Below are positions 48,521 to 58,573 of a stretch of 64,000 bases of DNA, in pieces. A program made the translations under genes and the position numbers. The notes under the pieces were generated by a model, which worked only from the letters and a program-made list of their open reading frames with translations, did no database searches and was not told the origin of the DNA. Location: contig NZ_JBBOCA010000001.1 in the NCBI RefSeq assembly GCF_038002225.1, positions 7,254,001 to 7,318,000 on the forward strand, given 5' to 3'. The DNA comes from Paenibacillus sp. FSL R7-0204. Lineage in GTDB: Bacteria > Bacillota > Bacilli > Paenibacillales > Paenibacillaceae. How positions within the stretch are numbered: the first letter of the stretch is position 1; each line of letters starts with the position of its first letter.

Positions 48521-49810
48521 TTAGATTTTATAAGCCTTCATTGCTTTTCTGATCTCCTTGATGCTAGGGCGCTTGCCGTACATCAGGACGCCGGTGCGGT
48601 AGATTTTGGCGGCAAGCCAGCCGAAGAGGAAGGTTGTCGCCAGCAGGATCGCCAGCGAGACCATGATCTCCCAGAAGGCCACATGGCCGACCCCGATCCG
48701 CAGCAGCAGGCTGAGCGAAGAGGTGAAGGGCACGAAGCTGGCGACCTTCACCAGCAAGGTATCCGGGTTCGAGATACTGAACAGCGGCAGATAGAAGCTG
48801 ACGAAGCCCAGCATCATGACCGGCATCACGGCCTGTCCCAGATCCTCTGTCCGGCTGACAATCGAGCCGACAGCGGCATACATCAGGGCGTACAGGAAGT
48901 AGCCCAGGATATACAGGATGAAGCCATAGACGATCATGCTGACATTAAGCTGTCCCAGATTCAGATCGAAATCGCTCAGGATCGTGGAATTATGCGGCAG
49001 CATCAGGTTGACAGCGATAGCAGCCGAGATAATGGCGATCTGCATCAGTCCGACGAGGAAGATTCCGATGACCTTGCCGAACATCTGGGTGAGTGGCGAG
49101 GCGCTGGTAATGAGAATCTCCATAATGCGCGAGCTTTTCTCCGAAGTAATCTCGGCTGAGATCATGTTGCCGGTCATCATCACCGACATGAAGAACAGAA
49201 TCAGTAAGATATAGACAATCACATAGTTGATAATTGGTTTGGACTGATCCTGATCTGCGCCACCTGCAGCACCGTCAGTACTTAGCTGTGCGGTATCAAT
49301 CGACACCGGAGCGAAGATCGCCGCCACCTGGCTCTCGGTCAGCTTGTCGCCGACAATCAGCCCGGTATTCACCTGCTGCAGAGCAGCTTGCAGATTCGTT
49401 CTCAGCTTGCTGCTGATGTCTCCGTCTTTGCTGTGATACGTTACCGGAGGCACGCCTTCCGTTCCTTCTGCGGCAAAGGTCAGATAGCCTTCAATTTTCT
49501 CATCCTCCACTCCCTGCTTCAGCGTTGCATCATCTGCGGAAGGATAAGCGGTAAATACGACTTTGTCTTCTGCTTCAGCCGGCGGGGTATAGGCAAGCAG
49601 CAGCTCGGCAGGCCGGAAGCCCTGCTCAGCAACAACTCCGATCTGTGTCGCGTCCTTGGCACCATCTTCTCCGTTGAACACTTTGATTAGATAAGGAATA
49701 TTCATCCCGATACTAAGCAGAAGCACCAGAATTAAGGTGGTAATCATAAAGGATTTCGTTCTTACCTTGTTCTTGAATGTGAAGCCGATAATGGTTGCCA
49801 TTTTATTCAT
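48521..49810 (-). CDS. ABC-2 type transporter permease (NatB/YhaP-like)
   Basis: About 429 residues; first helix after FTFKNKVRTKSF, an extracytoplasmic domain of ~150 residues, then five to six helices including MTGNMISAEITSEKSSRIMEILITSASPLTQMFGKVIG, the classic ABC-2/NatB cytoplasmic motif. ATG at 49810 is close to GGTGGG and overlaps the end of the ATPase gene. Last gene of the GntR-controlled operon; substrate unknown (sodium or antimicrobial efflux are family options). Confidence 0.87.
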   Translation of the reverse strand: MNKMATIIGFTFKNKVRTKSFMITTLILVLLLSIGMNIPYLIKVFNGEDGAKDATQIGVVAEQGFRPAELLLAYTPPAEAEDKVVFTAYPSADDATLKQGVEDEKIEGYLTFAAEGTEGVPPVTYHSKDGDISSKLRTNLQAALQQVNTGLIVGDKLTESQVAAIFAPVSIDTAQLSTDGAAGGADQDQSKPIINYVIVYILLILFFMSVMMTGNMISAEITSEKSSRIMEILITSASPLTQMFGKVIGIFLVGLMQIAIISAAIAVNLMLPHNSTILSDFDLNLGQLNVSMIVYGFILYILGYFLYALMYAAVGSIVSRTEDLGQAVMPVMMLGFVSFYLPLFSISNPDTLLVKVASFVPFTSSLSLLLRIGVGHVAFWEIMVSLAILLATTFLFGWLAAKIYRTGVLMYGKRPSIKEIRKAMKAYKI

Positions 49811-50705
49811 TGGATTCACCCACCGCTCTGATAAAGATTTGGTTTAACGTCGGTTCCTTGATCTCGAAATGCTCGACCTCGCCTTGGGCCACAGCCAGCT
49901 GCAGAATGCGCTGCGCCGCTCCCAGGTCACTGATGGATAACACGTACCCGCGTTCCTGACGCTGCACTCCGGTAACTCCGGCAACCTCGGCAAGTCCGTT
50001 CACTTCCCCGGCGGTGCGCAGTACAACCTCTTCCCGCGGATACCCCTTCTTGATCTCGCGGATATCTCCCTGAACCACGGTGTTCGAGCGGTCAAGAATC
50101 GTGATATTGCGGCATAATTCCTCCACATGCTCCATGCGGTGCGTGGAGAACAGAATGCTCGTTCCCAAATCCCGCATCTCTCTGACGGTATCCTTCAGCA
50201 GCTCCACATTGACCGGATCGAGGCCGCTGAAGGCTTCATCCAGGATCAGAATCTTCGGCTTATGGACCACAGCGGCGACGAAGCCCATCTTTTGCTGATT
50301 CCCCTTGGACAGCTCTTCAATCTTCTTATTGTAATATTCCGGTACATCGAAACGCTCCAGCCAGTACTTCAGGCTCTTATCCGCTTCACTGGCGGACATC
50401 CCGCGCAGCTGAGCCAGATAGATAATCTGATCGCTGACCTTGACCTTCGGGTACAATCCCCGTTCTTCCGGCAGATAGCCCATCAGATGCTGGAGCTCCT
50501 TACTATACGGCTTGCCGTTATACAGGATGCTTCCTTCGTCGGGATAGATCAGGCCGAGCACCATGCGCATAGTTGTTGTTTTGCCGGCACCGTTGGCACC
50601 CAACAGACCGTAAATCTCGCCTTGCTCCACCTTTAGACTGATTCCGTTGACGGCTGTCTTCTCACCGTACTGCTTCACTACCTGCTTCAACTGCAATGCT
50701 TCCAT
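49803..50705 (-). CDS. ABC transporter ATP-binding protein (NatA/YhaQ-like)
   Basis: About 300 residues with Walker A GANGAGKTT, Q-loop YLPEERGLY, signature LSKGNQQKMG, Walker B LILDEAF and H-loop STHRMEHVEEL, and a C-terminal extension of ~75 residues. ATG at 50705 lies two bases after the upstream stop and has AGAGAGGGG upstream. Serves the permease at 48521. Confidence 0.9.
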   Translation of the reverse strand: MEALQLKQVVKQYGEKTAVNGISLKVEQGEIYGLLGANGAGKTTTMRMVLGLIYPDEGSILYNGKPYSKELQHLMGYLPEERGLYPKVKVSDQIIYLAQLRGMSASEADKSLKYWLERFDVPEYYNKKIEELSKGNQQKMGFVAAVVHKPKILILDEAFSGLDPVNVELLKDTVREMRDLGTSILFSTHRMEHVEELCRNITILDRSNTVVQGDIREIKKGYPREEVVLRTAGEVNGLAEVAGVTGVQRQERGYVLSISDLGAAQRILQLAVAQGEVEHFEIKEPTLNQIFIRAVGESNE

Positions 50706-50707
50706 TC

Positions 50708-51637
50708 TTATTCCCCTCTCTTCTGGTCGATCAGAACCGGACGATGTCCCCGGGTCCATAAGCTTAGGATTTCATCCAGCTCCAGGCTGCGGCTCTTGAG
50801 TACCTTTACGCCCAAATCGTGAATACGTTTCTCATACAGATAAATTTGCTGGGTTAAAAAGGAAGCCACTCCCGGCGTCTCGAGCTTCAGCTCCAGCGCC
50901 TGCGGCAGCTCGGCTGCCAGTTCCTGCAGCTCTTGCTCTCCCTCAATTTGAACCCATATTTCACTCCATGAACCAAACAGGCTGTCCTTCTCGGTCATTC
51001 CCAGCAGCTGCCCCTGGTGCATCAGCACGATATAATCGGCCAGCCGCCGCACCTCTTCAACAATATGAGTGGAGATGATAATCGTCGCTTCATGCTCCTC
51101 CATGTAATTCTGCAGCGTCTCAATCATAAGCTTCCAGGCAAAAGGGTCCAGGCCCGAGGACGGCTCATCCAGCAGCAGCAGCCGGGGCTTCGCCGCGAGG
51201 GCGGCGGCAAGCTCGAACTTGCGGCGTTCCCCCTTGGACATCTTGCCCAGTCTGGCGTTCGGCGGCACTTCAAACTTACGGATTAGCTCCTCGAAGTAGC
51301 CGTGATCCCAGGAAGGATACCAGTGGCGGCGGAACTCCGCAGCCTCAGCGGCTGTCCAAAAGTTCTCCTCAGGCTGGGGCATCTCCGGCACGTAAGCGAT
51401 GGTCTGGCGGAGCTCCATCGGCAGCACTCCGCGGTAAGTCTCTTCATACCAGCGGATCTCCCCTTCATCCGGCAAAATCAGCTGCAGGAGCATATTCAGC
51501 AGCGTGCTTTTGCCCGCGCCGTTCTGGCCCACCAGCGCTGTAATATATCCTTGCGGCAGCCGGAGATTCATCGGCCCGATGGTCTTGTTGCGCCGCTTCT
51601 TGCATACATCCCGCAGTTCTATGGCTTGCTGTCCCAT
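50708..51637 (-). CDS. ABC transporter ATP-binding protein (YtrB-like)
   Basis: 309 residues with Walker A GQNGAGKST, Q-loop VPEMPQ, signature MSKGERRKF and Walker B LLLLDEPSSGLDP. The size, the GntR regulator partner directly upstream and the neighbouring small permease resemble the Bacillus ytrABCDEF system. ATG overlaps the gntR stop as TGATG. Confidence 0.9.
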   Translation of the reverse strand: MGQQAIELRDVCKKRRNKTIGPMNLRLPQGYITALVGQNGAGKSTLLNMLLQLILPDEGEIRWYEETYRGVLPMELRQTIAYVPEMPQPEENFWTAAEAAEFRRHWYPSWDHGYFEELIRKFEVPPNARLGKMSKGERRKFELAAALAAKPRLLLLDEPSSGLDPFAWKLMIETLQNYMEEHEATIIISTHIVEEVRRLADYIVLMHQGQLLGMTEKDSLFGSWSEIWVQIEGEQELQELAAELPQALELKLETPGVASFLTQQIYLYEKRIHDLGVKVLKSRSLELDEILSLWTRGHRPVLIDQKRGE

Positions 51638-52050
51638 CAGCTTCCCCCTCTTTCTGCCTGCTTCCCGTATTTGTTCTTCACAATCTCTGTGAACAGCCTG
51701 ATCAGTTCCTCTTCGCTACATTGGACGGATAGTCCCGCCTCCACGGCACTCTCCAGCGCTTTGCGGACGGTCTCCTGCTTATAGTCCTCCATGGCTCCGG
51801 TACCGATATGGGACACGAAGGTGCCCGTCCCTTGCCGGGTACGCAGCAGCCCTTCGTTCTCCAGATCCTGATAGACACGGCGGACCGTAATGACACTGCA
51901 CTTCAGGTCACCCGCGAATTCGCGGATGGAAGGAAGCAGTGTCCCTTCTGTAATCGCGCCTGAGATAATCAGCGATCTGAGCTGCGTCTCGATCTGATGG
52001 TACAGCGGCTCTGCGCTGTTCTCATTAATTTGTATAGGTATCCACATCAT
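51637..52050 (-). CDS. GntR-family regulator (YtrA subfamily)
   Basis: 137 residues: short YtrA-type GntR protein with a winged-helix front (EPLYHQIETQLRSLIISGAITEGTLLPSIREFAGDLKCSVITVRRVYQDLENEGLL) and only a small helical C-terminus. YtrA-type regulators repress ABC transporter operons; the promoter-overlapping palindrome at 52911 is its probable site. Confidence 0.9.
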   Translation of the reverse strand: MMWIPIQINENSAEPLYHQIETQLRSLIISGAITEGTLLPSIREFAGDLKCSVITVRRVYQDLENEGLLRTRQGTGTFVSHIGTGAMEDYKQETVRKALESAVEAGLSVQCSEEELIRLFTEIVKNKYGKQAERGGS

Positions 52051-52099
52051 TTACACCTGCCTTCCAGGCCCGGCCCCCGGATGAACGCCTTGCCCCGTC

Positions 52100-52828
52100 T
52101 CATACGAGATCACGGCTCTTCAGCCGGTGAATCGTCCATCTGGAGAATAACTGAACCGATAACACGCCAAGTACCAGCGTTCCCCACATCAGGGGAGATA
52201 ATAGGCCCCACTCCTTGGATACAGCGACCGTGGCGAGCAGTATATTACCTCCAGCCAGATAGACCAGACCGGACACGCCCAGCGCCAGCAGCATAACGGC
52301 TGAGATGATCCAGAAGTACATGACGCCGCTGACCGAGAACTCGATGATAATATACATGCCAGCGACAATCAGGCTGTAACCGATCCAGGTAAAGGCAAAA
52401 GCCAGATACGAAGCAGGCGGCAATTCAGCGCGTATTCCGGGGCCGATCGCATAGAGCAGGCTGAAGAACAGCGTGCTGTTCATGGTCACAGCTAACAGGG
52501 TGTCCAGCTTTCTTTTACAGAGAATAGCAGCTACCGGTACCGGCAAAGCCCGCATATACGCCAGCATCCGGGTATAGGAATCCTCTGAGATATACTTCAT
52601 TGTCCGCCGGGAAAAGGTAATCGTGAGCATGAGCATCATCGTAACCATCAGCACATCGCTTAGCAATTGCTTATCATGTCCCGTGATCGTATCGTCGATG
52701 ACCATTCCTGACAGTGCAGCAAAATATCCCATAAACAGGAGCGAGAACAGCAGCGCCCACAGCAGCTTCCAGCGGTCACCGTGGAATTCGCTGCGTACGA
52801 TGACCCACGCTTGCTTTAATGTTGTCAT
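52100..52828 (-). CDS. ABC-2-like membrane protein, first gene of the GntR operon
   Basis: 242 residues with six hydrophobic helices and no catalytic motif. TFSRRTMKYISEDSYTRMLAYMRALPVPVAAILCKR resembles the cytoplasmic loop of ABC-2 permeases that pair with YtrB-type ATPases. GAGGTTAGAAG precedes the ATG. It is the first gene behind the promoter at 52930. Confidence 0.8.
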   Translation of the reverse strand: MTTLKQAWVIVRSEFHGDRWKLLWALLFSLLFMGYFAALSGMVIDDTITGHDKQLLSDVLMVTMMLMLTITFSRRTMKYISEDSYTRMLAYMRALPVPVAAILCKRKLDTLLAVTMNSTLFFSLLYAIGPGIRAELPPASYLAFAFTWIGYSLIVAGMYIIIEFSVSGVMYFWIISAVMLLALGVSGLVYLAGGNILLATVAVSKEWGLLSPLMWGTLVLGVLSVQLFSRWTIHRLKSRDLV

Positions 52829-52929: not shown

Positions 52930-52958
52930 AGTATATGACCTGTGCTTTTCACTGTCAA
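52930..52958 (-). promoter_or_regulatory. sigma-A promoter of the ABC transporter operon
   Basis: On the minus strand TTGACA (52953-52958) and TATACT (52930-52935) are separated by exactly 17 bases, a near-consensus pair about 100 bases before the first start codon. Confidence 0.85.
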
Positions 52959-52980: not shown

Positions 52981-53132
52981 TGATTTAGATTTCCACGCAC
53001 GAAAAAAACCCCGCACATAGGCGGAGTCTGGACTTTATTATTGGAGCTTACGCGGGATTTGCGGCACAAGTGCCGGATTTCGATGCAAAAAACCGCATGA
53101 AGCTAAGTCTGTATGTATACTTTGATGTTTTT
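52981..53132. other. gap left of the recombinase element
   Basis: About 150 bases without a gene. It has some short GC-rich palindrome-like fragments (GGCACAAGTGCC near 53063) but nothing with a firm function. Confidence 0.4.
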
Positions 53133-53157
53133 TGTCGTACAATATCACTTATGCGAC
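53133..53157. repeat. left 25-bp inverted repeat of the recombinase segment
   Basis: Perfect reverse complement of 54317-54341. The core begins TGTCGTACAATATCACTT. Within it two diverging 10-base arms (GTCGTACAAT and, reversed, GTCGCATAAG) flank a 4-base centre, the form of a tyrosine recombinase crossover site. Confidence 0.9.
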
Positions 53158-53325
53158 TTTTTTGGAGCAAAACAAGAGACACTATGCATACTTGCGCATA
53201 ATCAAGCAGCAATGCGTTTATTATAGGTCATTTCCTAACTTCTGTATAGAAACTTTGCCGGATCAGCCCCTCTGCTTCCACAACAATGGTCAATTCGTGT
53301 CGCCGCAATTTTTGTCGAATTCAAT

Positions 53326-54285
53326 CTATTGAATGAACGTACGCAGGCTGTCCTCCACAAAATCCGGGGCGGCCTTTTGAATCTGCTGAACGGTGTGGAG
53401 GTACCGCTGGGTGGTATTGATGTGGGAATGCCCCAACGATTCCTGAACCTGCTGAAGCGACGCTCCCTGGAGCAAGGCCAGTGTGGCATTCGTATGCCGC
53501 AGCCAGTGCGGCGTCAGCTTTTTCTCAATCGTGCTGGCGGCTCCGGCGTTCTTAATAATCCGTTCCACCTGCCGTGAAGATAACGGAAACATCCTCTGCT
53601 CCGGGGTGACCTCTTCCTTCCTTGGCAGGGTATCAGACAACTTGGAATACAGCTGCCAGAGGGTCGGCGGAACCTTGATTTCTCTGGGCTTGCCCCCCTT
53701 GCCGTTCTCCACGGTCAGCCAGACCGAGGTCTCCAGCAGATCATTATGGAAGTCTCCCCACTTCATTGCTGTCAACTCCGATACCCGCAGACCCAGTACC
53801 ACTAGCGTCAGCCCGATCAGATAGTTGCGCAGTCCTTGTTTCTCCAGTACATTCAGTAATTCTCCCACCTCCCGTTTGGTCAGGAAGTTTTTGCGGCTGG
53901 TCACGTTTATTTTGGGGATGCGCACCGAGGAGGTCGGATTCACTGCAAAAAAACCGATATGCTGGTCACTCCCCCATTTATAAAAAGACTTCAACGGCGC
54001 AAGGAATGCGGCTATGCTTGCCGGTGCCAGCTGCCTCTGATAGCTGTAGCCCCCCTGCGTCAGGAAAATCTTATACGCCTCAATCTCCCTCCAGCTCACT
54101 GCCCGCAAAGAGGTGCCTGCAATAAATCTGCGGAAATCGGCAATCGCCCGCTTATAATTTCGACCTGTATTAACATTCGTACAGCAGGTAGCCATAAACA
54201 TCTGAACAATCTGATCATCGCTTAGGTAGCCCTCTTCGGGGTACACCAAGCTGAGCGCCGTACGGCTAAATTCGGTCTGGCTCAT
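53326..54285 (-). CDS. tyrosine site-specific recombinase (integrase/XerD-like)
   Basis: About 319 residues. The N-terminal SAM-like core-binding domain (~30-130) is followed by a catalytic domain with the full set of residues: Arg in GLRVSELTAMKWGD, Lys in NGKGGKPREIKV, HWLRHTNAT (His and Arg), and GHSHINTTQRYLH (His and nucleophile Tyr). The ATG at 54285 is used; the longer frame upstream runs through the right inverted repeat, and GAGGAG is 13 bases ahead of this ATG, so the start is not perfect. It is not a phage-borne gene by context: no other phage genes are present. The 3' end lies ~170 bases from the left inverted repeat. Confidence 0.9.
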   Translation of the reverse strand: MSQTEFSRTALSLVYPEEGYLSDDQIVQMFMATCCTNVNTGRNYKRAIADFRRFIAGTSLRAVSWREIEAYKIFLTQGGYSYQRQLAPASIAAFLAPLKSFYKWGSDQHIGFFAVNPTSSVRIPKINVTSRKNFLTKREVGELLNVLEKQGLRNYLIGLTLVVLGLRVSELTAMKWGDFHNDLLETSVWLTVENGKGGKPREIKVPPTLWQLYSKLSDTLPRKEEVTPEQRMFPLSSRQVERIIKNAGAASTIEKKLTPHWLRHTNATLALLQGASLQQVQESLGHSHINTTQRYLHTVQQIQKAAPDFVEDSLRTFIQ

Positions 54286-54316
54286 TCTTTTTTCATCACT
54301 CCTCAGGAATAGACAT

Positions 54317-54341
54317 GTCGCATAAGTGATATTGTACGACA
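54317..54341. repeat. right 25-bp inverted repeat of the recombinase segment
   Basis: Exact reverse complement of 53133-53157. It lies between the recombinase start and the chemotaxis operon; an extended -10-like TGGTATTTT follows at ~54348 on the plus strand and could drive cheW. Confidence 0.9.
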
Positions 54342-54495
54342 TTTTTGTGGTATTTTGTCCCATTATCACACAAGGATGGCTAAAGACCGGAACATGCAAG
54401 ATCAGCAGCAAGTAACGCGAAGAACTCAGGAGGGAGACGGAGACAGAATAGCGGCTGCGGGCCAGCTAAGTAATATGAGAAGCCGGAGGGTAACT

Positions 54496-54924
54496 ATGGA
54501 GACCGTTTTGCAGAAACAATATGTTGAATTCGGGGTAGATCACGAGCATTATGCGATCCCGATCTCAGATGTTCATGAAATTATAAGAATGCAGGAAATA
54601 ACGGAAATCCCCAGCAGCCGTCACTACGTTAAGGGCATTATCAACCTCAGGGGTAAAATTGTGCCGGTGCTCAGCCTTAGAGTGCTGCTTCAGATGGAAG
54701 AAGTGGAGCCGACCAAACACACACGCATTCTGGTGGTCCATCACCAGGAGGAATCCCTGGGCGTTATTGTCGACAACGTGAATAAAGTGACGACCTTCAG
54801 CGATATTCAGCCTGCACAGGGCAGCCTCTCTGGAGTCAGCGGCTCCTTCTTCAACGGAGTAGGCTTCTCTTCTTCCGAGCTGGTCGGCATTCTGCGGCTG
54901 GATGAGATCCTGCTGCGAGACTAA
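54496..54924 (+). CDS. cheW: chemotaxis coupling protein CheW
   Basis: About 142 residues with the CheW beta-barrel motifs: YVEFGVDHEHYAIPISDVHEIIRMQEITEIPSSRHYVKGIINLRGKIVPVLSLR and the closing FSSSELVGILRLDEILL. ATG at 54496 has GGAGGGT upstream; the frame is open back to 54355 but without a ribosome site. Couples MCP receptors to CheA. Confidence 0.92.
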   Translation: METVLQKQYVEFGVDHEHYAIPISDVHEIIRMQEITEIPSSRHYVKGIINLRGKIVPVLSLRVLLQMEEVEPTKHTRILVVHHQEESLGVIVDNVNKVTTFSDIQPAQGSLSGVSGSFFNGVGFSSSELVGILRLDEILLRD

Positions 54925-54953: not shown

Positions 54954-56954
54954 ATGGTTGATTTATCGGAATACCGAGGGATATTTCTGGAGGAACTGGA
55001 GGACCAGCTGCAGCTGATCGAGGATGAGGTGCTCAGGCTGGAGCAGACCGGGGAGACAGAAGACGGAATCCAGCAGTTCTTCCGGGCGGCCCATACCCTT
55101 AAGGGCTCCTCGGCCTCTATGGGCTACAACGGGCTGAAGGAAGTCACGCATCATCTGGAGCATCTGCTTCATCAGATGCGGGGAGGGGAACGGACGGTCA
55201 CGCCGGAGCTGATCCGCCTGTTCTTCGGAGCGCTGGATGGAATGCGCGCGCTGCAGAGCGAGATCGCTGCTACGGATCAGGAGACCACAGATGTGTCCGG
55301 TCTGGTGCAGCGGCTGAGTACATTCGCAGCGGAGGAGCTGCAGAAGCCGGAGGATAAGGTCCCTGCTGTGCAGACAAGTCAGGCAGAGCTTCCCCTCCAG
55401 CTGTTCTGGGTGCATGTGTGGCTCTCTTCCGGCTGTGAGATGAAGCTGCCCCGTCTTCACCTGATCGATGCCAAGCTGCGGAGTGTCGCTGCGGTCCTGC
55501 GCATGAAGCCGGAGCTGGAAGAGATAGAGGACCACGACAGCCGGATCGACGAGGCCTCCTGGTTGCTGTCGCCTAAGATCGATATCGAGGAGCTCCGTCA
55601 GGAGGTCTTATCCATTATGGATGTTGATCGTATATACATAGAAGAAGTGCTTAACGATTCCCCGCGTCCCGGTGAATTCGTGAGACCGCCCCATCCGGAG
55701 ACGGGGAGCCGGGAGCTCCCGGAAGTACCAGAATCCCCGCCGTCTGCCGCTGACAAAACCAAGCCGCAAACGATCCGCGTCCAGGTGGAGCGTCTGGAGA
55801 AGCTGATGAACCTGGCGGGTGAGCTGGTCATCGATCAGACCCGGTTCCATCTGCTGAACCGCAGATTCCACCAGCAATACGGAACCAATGATCTGACAGA
55901 GGAGCTGGGCCAGCTTGCCGACCATCTGGCTATGATTACGGGGGAACTGCAGGAGAGCATGATTAAGGTGCGGATGCTGCCGATAGAGCAGCTGTTCAAC
56001 CGTCTGCCCCGCATGGTCCGGGACTTGTCCGGCTCCCTGAACAAGCAGGTTGAGCTGGTTCTTGAAGGCAAGGAGACAGAGCTGGACCGGACGCTCATTG
56101 AAGAGCTTGGCGACCCGCTGATCCATCTGCTGCGCAATGCCGTTGATCACGGCATAGAGACCCCTGAAATCCGCCGCAGCGCCGGCAAAAGCGAGACCGG
56201 AACCGTCCGCGTCGCGGCCTCCCATGAGGATAATCAGGTCATCCTGGTCATCGAGGACGACGGGGCCGGGATTGATTCCAGCCTGATTGCAGAGTCTGCC
56301 CTGCGGAAGGGCATCATTACGGCTGAAGAGGCCGGCGGGATGACTGAGGATGAAGCGCTGCGGCTTATTTTCCGGCCCGGCTTCTCCACCGCCCCGCACA
56401 TCAGCGATATTTCCGGCCGCGGGGTCGGAATGGATATCGTCCGCAATGATATTGAACGGATTAACGGCATGATCGATATCGAGACCACGCGGGGGCAAGG
56501 CACCCGCTTCCGGATTCGTCTGCCCCTGACGCTCGCTATCATCCGGGGTCTGCTCGTTCATGCCGGGGGAGCCACCTTCGTGATTCCCATGAGCAGTGTG
56601 GCCGAGATTGTCCGCGTCACTCCAGAGGAGATCAGCTCTGTCCGGGGCCAGCCTGTCATTACCGCACGGGGGCAGCTCGTGCCGGTGGTCTGGCTGCAGG
56701 ATATCCTGCGGCTCCCCGCAGGTGCGGGTGGCAGATCAGCATCCATTCCGCTGATTATCGTGGGACGGGGAGAGAAACGGCTGGCACTTGCCGTGGATAC
56801 ACTTATCGGCAATCAGGATATCGTAATCAAATCGCTCGGCGCCTACATGGGCAAGACTGAGAACATATCAGGAGCTACCATCCTGGGAAATGGCAATATC
56901 GCTCTGATCATAGATACAGCCAGCTTATTTTTCAATACGGGAGTCTTCGCTTAA
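54954..56954 (+). CDS. cheA: chemotaxis histidine kinase CheA
   Basis: 666 residues in the standard domain order: P1 Hpt with phospho-His47 (FRAAHTLKGSSASMGY), a P2-like CheY-binding region (~145-245), P3 dimerisation (VQVERLEKLMNLAGELVIDQTRF, ~280), P4 HATPase (LLRNAVDHGIE, DDGAGID, SGRGVGMDIVRNDIE) and P5 CheW-like domain from ~535. No catalytic residue is missing. It lies 29 bases after cheW and directly before an MCP gene. Confidence 0.95.
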   Translation: MVDLSEYRGIFLEELEDQLQLIEDEVLRLEQTGETEDGIQQFFRAAHTLKGSSASMGYNGLKEVTHHLEHLLHQMRGGERTVTPELIRLFFGALDGMRALQSEIAATDQETTDVSGLVQRLSTFAAEELQKPEDKVPAVQTSQAELPLQLFWVHVWLSSGCEMKLPRLHLIDAKLRSVAAVLRMKPELEEIEDHDSRIDEASWLLSPKIDIEELRQEVLSIMDVDRIYIEEVLNDSPRPGEFVRPPHPETGSRELPEVPESPPSAADKTKPQTIRVQVERLEKLMNLAGELVIDQTRFHLLNRRFHQQYGTNDLTEELGQLADHLAMITGELQESMIKVRMLPIEQLFNRLPRMVRDLSGSLNKQVELVLEGKETELDRTLIEELGDPLIHLLRNAVDHGIETPEIRRSAGKSETGTVRVAASHEDNQVILVIEDDGAGIDSSLIAESALRKGIITAEEAGGMTEDEALRLIFRPGFSTAPHISDISGRGVGMDIVRNDIERINGMIDIETTRGQGTRFRIRLPLTLAIIRGLLVHAGGATFVIPMSSVAEIVRVTPEEISSVRGQPVITARGQLVPVVWLQDILRLPAGAGGRSASIPLIIVGRGEKRLALAVDTLIGNQDIVIKSLGAYMGKTENISGATILGNGNIALIIDTASLFFNTGVFA

Positions 56955-56983: not shown

Positions 56984-58573
56984 ATGAAATGGTTCTATAA
57001 TCTAAAAACAAGCGTGAAATTAATCTCGTCCTTCCTGACCGTCGCTCTCATTCTTTCCTTCGTGGGCCTCTACGGTCTCAGCAACCTCGGCTCGATTAAT
57101 AACAGTCTGGACGATATGTATGTGAACAATCTGGTTCCCGTCTCCTCCCTGCAAAGCTCACAGAACAGCTTCTCGGTCATGCGTGTTATCGTCAGGGATC
57201 TGTACATTAAAAAGACCCCTGAGGAACGCCAGCAGCGGGTGGACGATTATAAAAAAGAGAAGCAGAACGTACTCGATAACATCGCGGCCTTCCGCAAAAC
57301 CAAGCTGAGCGCGGAATCGGTTCAAGCCATTGCCCCTTTTGAAGCGGCATGGAATGATTATCTGTTAACGTACGATTCTCTTGTCAGCCTCTCCCTGACT
57401 GGACAGGACGAGAAGCTGCTGGAGATGCTGCGCGGCAGCACGCTTAACAACCAAGGCGATACCTTGAAGAATATTCTGAACGAGCTGATTCTCACCAACA
57501 CCAAGGAAGCGGATCAGGCCAGACAGAGCGGAGCCGCACTCTATAGCTCTTCACGTAATATTACCCTCAGTATCATTATCGGTGCAGTCATTCTGTGCAT
57601 CCTGCTAGGGTATATCATCTCCCGGATTATTTCTAATCCGCTGGCGAAGGTTGTCAAGGTTCTCTCGAAGGTGGCTGACGGCGACCTGCGCAGCCAATCC
57701 GATATCGACACCAGAGATGAAATCGGCATCCTGGCTGCCAAGGTGAATGAGATGGTCAGCAACCTCCGCCGGACGGTGGGGTCCATTCTGCTGCATTCCC
57801 AGAGCCTGTCTGCTGCGGCCGAGGAGATCTCCGCCAGTACGCAAGAGGTGGCAAGCGGCAGCACGACCACAGCGGATGATGCCGGGACCATCAGCGAGTT
57901 ATTCAAAGAGCTGTCCAGCGCGATCCACTCTGTAGCCCAGAATACCGAGCAGGCCTCGGTAATCTCCGATGAGACCGTTACGATTGCCGAGAACGGGAAC
58001 AGCATCATTCAGGAGTCGATGGAGAGTATGCAGGCTGTCAGCGGACAGATGGCTAAGCTTGAGGAGGACTCGCAGAAGGTCGGCGAGATTATCGATGTTA
58101 TTGAGGATATTGCAGATCAGACCAACCTGCTTGCTCTGAATGCCGCCATTGAAGCCGCAAGAGCGGGGGAACAGGGCCGCGGCTTCGCGGTGGTGGCTGA
58201 CGAGGTGCGCAAGCTGGCCGAGCGCAGCGGCGAGGCCACTAAGCAGATCACCAGCATCATCAAGGGGATGCAGGTGAATACACGCTACAGCGTGAGCGCT
58301 GTGCAGGAGAGTGCGGAGCTGTCGCAGAAGACCGGCGTTTCTTTTCATCAGATCGTGACGATGGTCAACAGCGCCGGCCAGAAAATCTCCGAAATCGCCG
58401 CCGCCAGCGAAGAACAAGCCGCCCAGTCCACCAACGTCCTCGCTGCCGTGGAGAGCATCTCCGCCACCACCCAGCAGTCCGCCGCCAGCAGCGAAGAGAC
58501 CGCCTCCTCCGCCCAGTCCCTGGCCAGCCTGGCCGAGGAGCTGCAGAGCACGGTGTCTTCGTTCCAGTTGTAG
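56984..58573 (+). CDS. methyl-accepting chemotaxis protein with 4HB sensor domain
   Basis: 529 residues: TM1 (~11-31), a four-helix-bundle type extracytoplasmic sensor (~32-185), TM2 (~190-212), HAMP (~213-265), then the MCP signalling hairpin with the conserved tip IADQTNLLALNAAIEAARAGEQGRGFAVVADEVRKLAE. The sensor domain resembles the 4HB_MCP type and its ligand is unknown. No cheR, cheB, cheY, cheC or cheD is in this cluster. Confidence 0.93.
   Translation: MKWFYNLKTSVKLISSFLTVALILSFVGLYGLSNLGSINNSLDDMYVNNLVPVSSLQSSQNSFSVMRVIVRDLYIKKTPEERQQRVDDYKKEKQNVLDNIAAFRKTKLSAESVQAIAPFEAAWNDYLLTYDSLVSLSLTGQDEKLLEMLRGSTLNNQGDTLKNILNELILTNTKEADQARQSGAALYSSSRNITLSIIIGAVILCILLGYIISRIISNPLAKVVKVLSKVADGDLRSQSDIDTRDEIGILAAKVNEMVSNLRRTVGSILLHSQSLSAAAEEISASTQEVASGSTTTADDAGTISELFKELSSAIHSVAQNTEQASVISDETVTIAENGNSIIQESMESMQAVSGQMAKLEEDSQKVGEIIDVIEDIADQTNLLALNAAIEAARAGEQGRGFAVVADEVRKLAERSGEATKQITSIIKGMQVNTRYSVSAVQESAELSQKTGVSFHQIVTMVNSAGQKISEIAAASEEQAAQSTNVLAAVESISATTQQSAASSEETASSAQSLASLAEELQSTVSSFQL

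Follow-up and report, generated by a model that had tools for sequence, protein, structure and literature searches.

The window, a 64,000-nucleotide stretch of the Paenibacillus sp. FSL R7-0204 genome, holds a gene for a tyrosine recombinase that is framed by two inverted repeats and lies between a chemotaxis operon and a group of ABC transporter and GntR genes. In order of position, the features of this region are:

48521–52828, minus strand: ABC transporter and GntR genes, the non-target flank
52930–52958, minus strand: promoter-like sequence (TTGACA-17-TATACT) of the ABC/GntR genes, past the terminator
53006–53029, minus strand: terminator-like hairpin with a T run, just outside site 1 and opposite the outward promoter in the present orientation
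53134–53157, plus strand: putative crossover site 1, GTCGTACAA-TATCAC-TTATGCGAC, within the 25-bp repeat 53133–53157
53220–53248, minus strand: outward promoter-like sequence (TATACA-17-TATAAT, a 10/12 consensus match) between the recombinase stop codon and site 1
53326–54285, minus strand: tyrosine recombinase gene of 319 residues, an uninterrupted open reading frame with a Phage_integrase domain match
54317–54340, minus strand: putative crossover site 2, the inverted copy of site 1, within the 25-bp repeat 54317–54341
54362–54370, minus strand: TGTGATAAT, a weak candidate -10 element of the recombinase gene, read from the sequence outside site 2
54496–54924, plus strand: cheW, which opens the predicted target operon (start 54496 chosen by us; the open reading frame list has it start at 54355)
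54954–56954, plus strand: cheA
56984–58573, plus strand: methyl-accepting chemotaxis protein gene (mcp)

The two repeats are exact reverse complements of 25 bp each, 1159 bp apart, and form the only 100% inverted pair of that length between positions 50000 and 58000, where, by our calculation for 8 kb with equal base frequencies, about 3e-8 such pairs would be expected by chance. The first-pass annotation had described perfect inverted repeats around the gene, each with two diverging arms about a short centre, and had suggested looking for the repeat elsewhere. Its description is exact, with arms and centre at 53134–53157 and their reverse complement at 54317–54340, and the strain's own 7.7-Mb genome, searched with 53100–54400, has the 25-mer twice only, at the two segment ends. 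It had also stated that the enzyme keeps all its catalytic residues, and this agrees with our alignment of 16 rows from diverse relatives, in which R167, K196, H260, R263, H286 and Y295, the catalytic residues of this enzyme class, are invariant.

The recombinase combines a Phage_integrase domain with a SAM-like N-terminal domain, which places it in the tyrosine class and not among the serine recombinases. By profile, the nearest protein of solved structure is XerA (5hxy); the recombinase of Paenibacillus silagei (L161) is 98% identical. A housekeeping Xer identity was considered and rejected, as scores fall far under the family cut-offs (127.2 bits against 335.15 for XerC, 116.1 bits against 329.6 for XerD, with the XerA cut-off likewise not reached) and the same genome has a separate XerD at 351.5 bits. 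No promoter of the recombinase's own was found in a scan of the flanks, where promoter-like matches occur in 25 of 88 loci on the recombinase side (10.1 expected) and in 17 of 88 on the other (14.7 expected).

Homologues of this gene are widespread among relatives and nearly always lie between such sites. Among 100 genomes sampled from the genus, the window's own included, 18 contain a recombinase match at a threshold of E 1e-40, one per genome (in G075 as two fragments), and an exact inverted pair surrounds the recombinase at all 18 loci. Searching the same genomes for the 24-base site with up to three mismatches gave sites in 20, of which 19 have one copy on each strand and one (G001) has a single copy. 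Across the family, a match at E 1e-60 is present in 84 of 394 genomes; all 94 listed places were fetched, and inverted dif-like sites with 9-bp arms and a 6-bp centre are present at every one. They enclose the recombinase gene at 93 of the 94, including one locus where the second site is half lost (L095) and another where the contig stops at the second site (L106). The exception is L109: upstream of its recombinase gene, two inverted sites with starts separated by 217 bp bound a 241-bp segment (L109:3692–3932) whose 10/12 promoter faces cheW and a methyl-accepting chemotaxis protein gene, so that the recombinase is not enclosed. In a draw from the order, 81 of 392 genomes and 22 of 49 genera had matches (E 1e-70), and a sampled draw from the phylum gave the window's own genome alone (1/398, E 1e-90). 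Among 80 of 135 named relatives, a set that overlaps the 94 family places, an inverted pair occurs in 79, with one end incomplete in three of them (L181, L195 and L225); no site pair was found in the remaining one, Tepidibacillus (L193).

Several of these loci appear damaged. The lone site of G001 (L143, 6180–6203) has the centre TATGAC, no recombinase, and an outer flank like that of G065; it is apparently a decayed switch. In G075 (L039) the recombinase is in two pieces, yet both sites are identical over 43 bp. At the half-lost site of Cohnella thermotolerans (L095, which is also L181), the sequence past the centre of the half-site is unrelated, as if an insertion or recombination had occurred there.

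The sites follow the consensus GTCGNAYAA-N6-TTRTNCGAC, and their arms are near-palindromic (a mean of 1.56 mismatches of 9 over 91 loci), which fits one enzyme acting on both. The 93 pairs have 32 different centres, none of them palindromic. Within pairs, mismatches number 86/1674 in the arms versus 6/558 in the centres (Fisher P 5.9e-6 for the 93 pairs and 8.3e-4 for the 52 distinct pairs, statistics that ignore relatedness), in a set whose detection required one exact 9-base word and so favours like pairs. All six centre mismatches come from the damaged pairs L095 and L106, without which the counts are 0/546 in the centres against 70/1638 in the arms; similarly, the 77 pairs of the named set have 3 centre and 60 arm mismatches, and all three of the former are in L181, the same Cohnella thermotolerans locus. 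Where the centre has changed within the genus, it is identical in both copies (TATCTC in G067; TAACAC in G083 and G043). We attribute this agreement within pairs, together with the variation between lineages, to strand exchange, because exchange requires such agreement and binding does not. As each lineage has its own 6-bp centre, the family offers a natural collection of recombination sites for comparative work.

Past inversion of the segment can be read from relatives that share its flanks. A flank screen flagged 150 of 912 flank-similar pairs as flipped, many via a single shared gene, and seven pairs were checked at the DNA level, of which three are clean on both sides. L151 and L155 (Paenibacillus sp. 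GM2) have ∼3.5 kb in common on each side at 88–90% identity, with the segment reversed and the breakpoints at the sites, and the same reversal, at 79–90% identity, separates L093 (Paenibacillus sp. D2_2) from L155 and L144 (Paenibacillus sanguinis) from L153 (Paenibacillus senegalimassiliensis). The other four pairs are less tidy: L141/L159 and L138/L159 are reversed on both sides with unaligned stretches beside one or both sites, L086/L087 has reversed stretches of 838 bp to one side and about 230 bp to the other, and L120/L084 has a single distant reversed stretch only. A tree of 86 recombinases, each marked ON (22) or OFF (64) according to its target side, requires at least 11 changes of orientation. 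In addition, the contig of Paenibacillus sabuli (L126, also L228) crosses one site and then continues for 66 bases that mirror the other flank, which is the junction that a flipped segment would give, or may be a fold-back artefact. Both orientations between the same flanks, a mark of invertons, are thus found between related species and at one contig end. The first-pass annotation had predicted inversion and not excision, and these reversals, with their breakpoints at the sites, the changes on the tree and the P. sabuli junction, bear it out. The comparison of orientation among relatives that it had proposed has a divided outcome: related species do differ in orientation, whereas the window's own genus group has a single orientation at 18 of 18 loci, so that there the segment may flip seldom, with a bias, or no longer.

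Contig ends also cluster at the sites. Five of the 80 named contigs end inside a site or within 105 bp of one, a limit set post hoc, versus 0.19 expected, and such ends could also arise in other ways. The G065 sequence consists of Ns that begin and stop just inside the two sites; the assembly may have broken where the segment is mixed, there may be a gap, or the bases may have been masked. The contig of P. silagei (L026, also L161) ends 213 bp past the promoter-side site, where it diverges from its relatives inside the terminator.

What such an inversion would switch is suggested by the sequences on either side of the segment. Taken alone, the window region has promoter-like matches (3 versus 2.3 in shuffles) and terminator-like matches (3 versus 1.7) that are not above the shuffles, and the case therefore rests on relatives. 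The TATAAT of the outward promoter is retained in 18 of 18 genus loci and the TATACA in 16, the remaining two (L030 and L031) having TAGACA 18 bases ahead of TATAAT. Over the wider family, an outward TATAAT lies between the recombinase stop codon and the site in 70 of 93 tails, compared with 16.2 expected from shuffles and 6 counted on the opposite strand, and an outward promoter matching at least 9/12 lies in 85 of 91 tails (24.8 in shuffles, 15 on the other strand), leaving six of the 91 without one. Five long tails examined for extra genes contained short open reading frames of 39–50 codons only. As in invertons, then, inverted repeats bound the segment and a promoter inside it, recognized by consensus match only, points outward; as in Hin-type systems, recombinase gene and outward promoter share the segment, with the gene enclosed at 93 of 94 loci.

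At 71 of the 93 loci, exactly one flank begins with a gene for an HD-GYP protein, mostly of ∼200 residues, that reads away from the site; it is on the promoter side in 22 loci and on the other side in 49. Twenty of the 22 have a TATAAT tail, and the other two have a 10/12 match. The five HD-GYP proteins that were scanned match HD_5 and HD, and from their family we infer that these proteins are predicted c-di-GMP phosphodiesterases. Other flanking genes that read away from the site are cheW at 16 of the 93 loci (the window included), secA at four and GGDEF-EAL genes at two, one call of each kind resting on a domain scan and the rest on clustering. Terminators within 350 bp occur on 38 of 89 non-target flanks versus 2 of 92 target flanks, with 1.6 expected for each, where, at the 22 loci that lack an HD-GYP neighbour, the recombinase-start side was taken as the target. 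Within the genus, 17 of 18 loci are flanked on one side by the ABC/GntR genes (the G050 contig ends first) and 14 of 18 by cheW–cheA on the other. The SecA gene adjoins the switch, on the side away from the promoter, in L112, L116, L117 and L157 (Paenibacillus dendritiformis G25-126, also L217), where it was identified by Pfam and NCBIfam in L112 and by clustering in the other three.

In the deposited orientation, the window's promoter faces the terminator at 53029–53006 and, beyond it, ABC genes with a promoter-like site of their own, so we read this orientation as OFF; a flipped segment would drive cheW–cheA–mcp. That neighbours might be turned on or off had been raised tentatively in the first-pass annotation, and they become the likely switched genes through three features that it had not described: the outward promoter, a terminator in one flank and signalling genes in the opposite one.

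From the sites, the layout of promoter and terminator, and the past inversions seen in relatives, we hypothesize, with a probability of roughly 0.8, that the segment 53134–54340 is an invertible promoter with its recombinase encoded inside, in a Hin-like layout with an Xer-type enzyme. The recombinase, if catalytically active, would act alone on the near-palindromic arms and swap strands in the asymmetric 6-bp centre, and because the sites are inverted the segment would flip. The promoter behind the recombinase gene, if transcribed from, would aim at the terminator in the present orientation (OFF) and would drive the chemotaxis operon in the flipped form (ON); in most relatives the switched gene would be that of the HD-GYP protein. 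Reversible switching in culture, and effects on motility or c-di-GMP, would be predicted from such a device.

The uniform orientation of the 18 genus loci could instead mean that the switch, real in relatives, is locked in the window's clade, its flipping lost or too rare to matter, and the decay within the genus (the gene in two pieces in G075, the lone site without a gene in G001) points the same way. Such locking is unlikely in our judgement: the clade's recombinase keeps its catalytic residues, site pairs are identical even where the centre has changed (G067, G083, G043), and the N run between the sites of G065 may reflect either masking or an assembly that broke because the segment was mixed.

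Two further readings seem to us very improbable. One, named as the main alternative in the first-pass annotation, is a single-gene mobile element that ends at the repeats and is inserted and excised by its recombinase. One gene inside inverted repeats has that appearance, some genomes of other genera carry two or three homologues, and direct matches just outside the sites exceed random pairing (4 bp in 9 of 90 versus 2.5; 5 bp in 8 of 90 versus 1.5), the window's own being a run of five A or T. However, no direct match reaches 6 bp (0/90), the segment occupies the same genomic place throughout the genus group with the same neighbour type in most loci, 19 of 20 site-bearing genus genomes have one site per strand, and the segment is found reversed between unchanged flanks; moreover, inverted sites are not known to allow excision by this enzyme class. 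The insertion-element alternative therefore fits poorly, and as an insertion sequence proper the locus was rejected on both target-site duplication (none of at least 6 bp) and scattered copies (in the genus, one match with the same neighbours). The other, to which we likewise give very little credence, is that the repeats are operators, bound by a protein that regulates its own gene and the neighbours, with inversions as rare accidents. The sites do lie close to the recombinase start codon (a median of 24 bp ahead of it), but operators would account neither for centres that agree within pairs yet vary between lineages nor for repeated flips with breakpoints at the sites.

An invertible promoter with its recombinase inside invites comparison with known systems. 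The hin gene lies inside its segment, the fim recombinase genes lie outside theirs, the Clostridioides difficile recombinases act from elsewhere in the genome, and XerC/XerD-dif sites have two arms around 6 bp. The window segment is like that of Hin in being a ∼1-kb segment that holds a recombinase gene and an outward promoter; it differs in its Xer-type tyrosine recombinase, its dif-like sites, and its HD-GYP or chemotaxis neighbours in place of flagellins, and it is not a member of the Hin group because the enzyme belongs to another recombinase class. It differs from fim in having the recombinase inside, L109 alone having a fim-like layout. With XerC/XerD-dif and archaeal XerA it shares fold family and site format, but scores far under their cut-offs and has two inverted sites beside its own gene. 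The Salmonella Hin switch is a ∼1-kb segment with inverted sites (hixL/hixR) and an outward promoter driving the neighbouring operon, fljBA (PMC9368917), Hin being a serine recombinase that needs a Fis-bound enhancer (PMC3798978); fim consists of FimB, FimE and an invertible promoter (PMC11868660), and in fim-type systems a tyrosine recombinase inverts the promoter segment (PMC6083910). The C. difficile flagellar switch is inverted by RecV (PMC7446863), and in C. difficile pdcB and pdcC an invertible promoter lies ahead of c-di-GMP phosphodiesterase genes (PMC9286219), an arrangement that resembles ours except that the targets there are GGDEF-EAL proteins.

Paenibacillus dendritiformis is known for its colony morphotypes. 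We consider it about an even proposition that these loci form an order-wide family of self-contained Hin-like inversion switches with an Xer-type tyrosine recombinase, by which Paenibacillus, Cohnella, Brevibacillus and their relatives turn c-di-GMP and chemotaxis signalling heritably on or off, and that the exchange of target to SecA in the P. dendritiformis group makes the switch a candidate mechanism for those morphotypes. If so, the Hin layout has been reached with an unrelated enzyme class, maintained throughout an order and coupled to signalling genes, and the switch could be tested as a mechanism of phenotypic variation in Paenibacillus. For Paenibacillus polymyxa, one source states that the direct mechanism of variation is yet to be elucidated and counts inversion among general mechanisms (PMC3694910), and another treats the variation as probably epigenetic (PMC11322358). 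Surveys of invertible regions exist (PhaseFinder, PhaVa; PMC11868660), and a term search of PMC5903667 and PMC11892184 gave no mention of Paenibacillus. In the literature searched, mostly without subscription papers, we found no such switch for Paenibacillus, and we do not claim its absence from print.

Two smaller observations concern the recombinases themselves. In Cohnella laeviribosi (L128), a 73-bp inverted repeat takes in the start of the recombinase gene, from its ribosome site through the start codon to the first codons, and recurs inside the other segment end. Finally, the window's own genome has five XerD-like matches within 14 kb (G000:C1:6395472-6409107), one of them with an internal stop codon.
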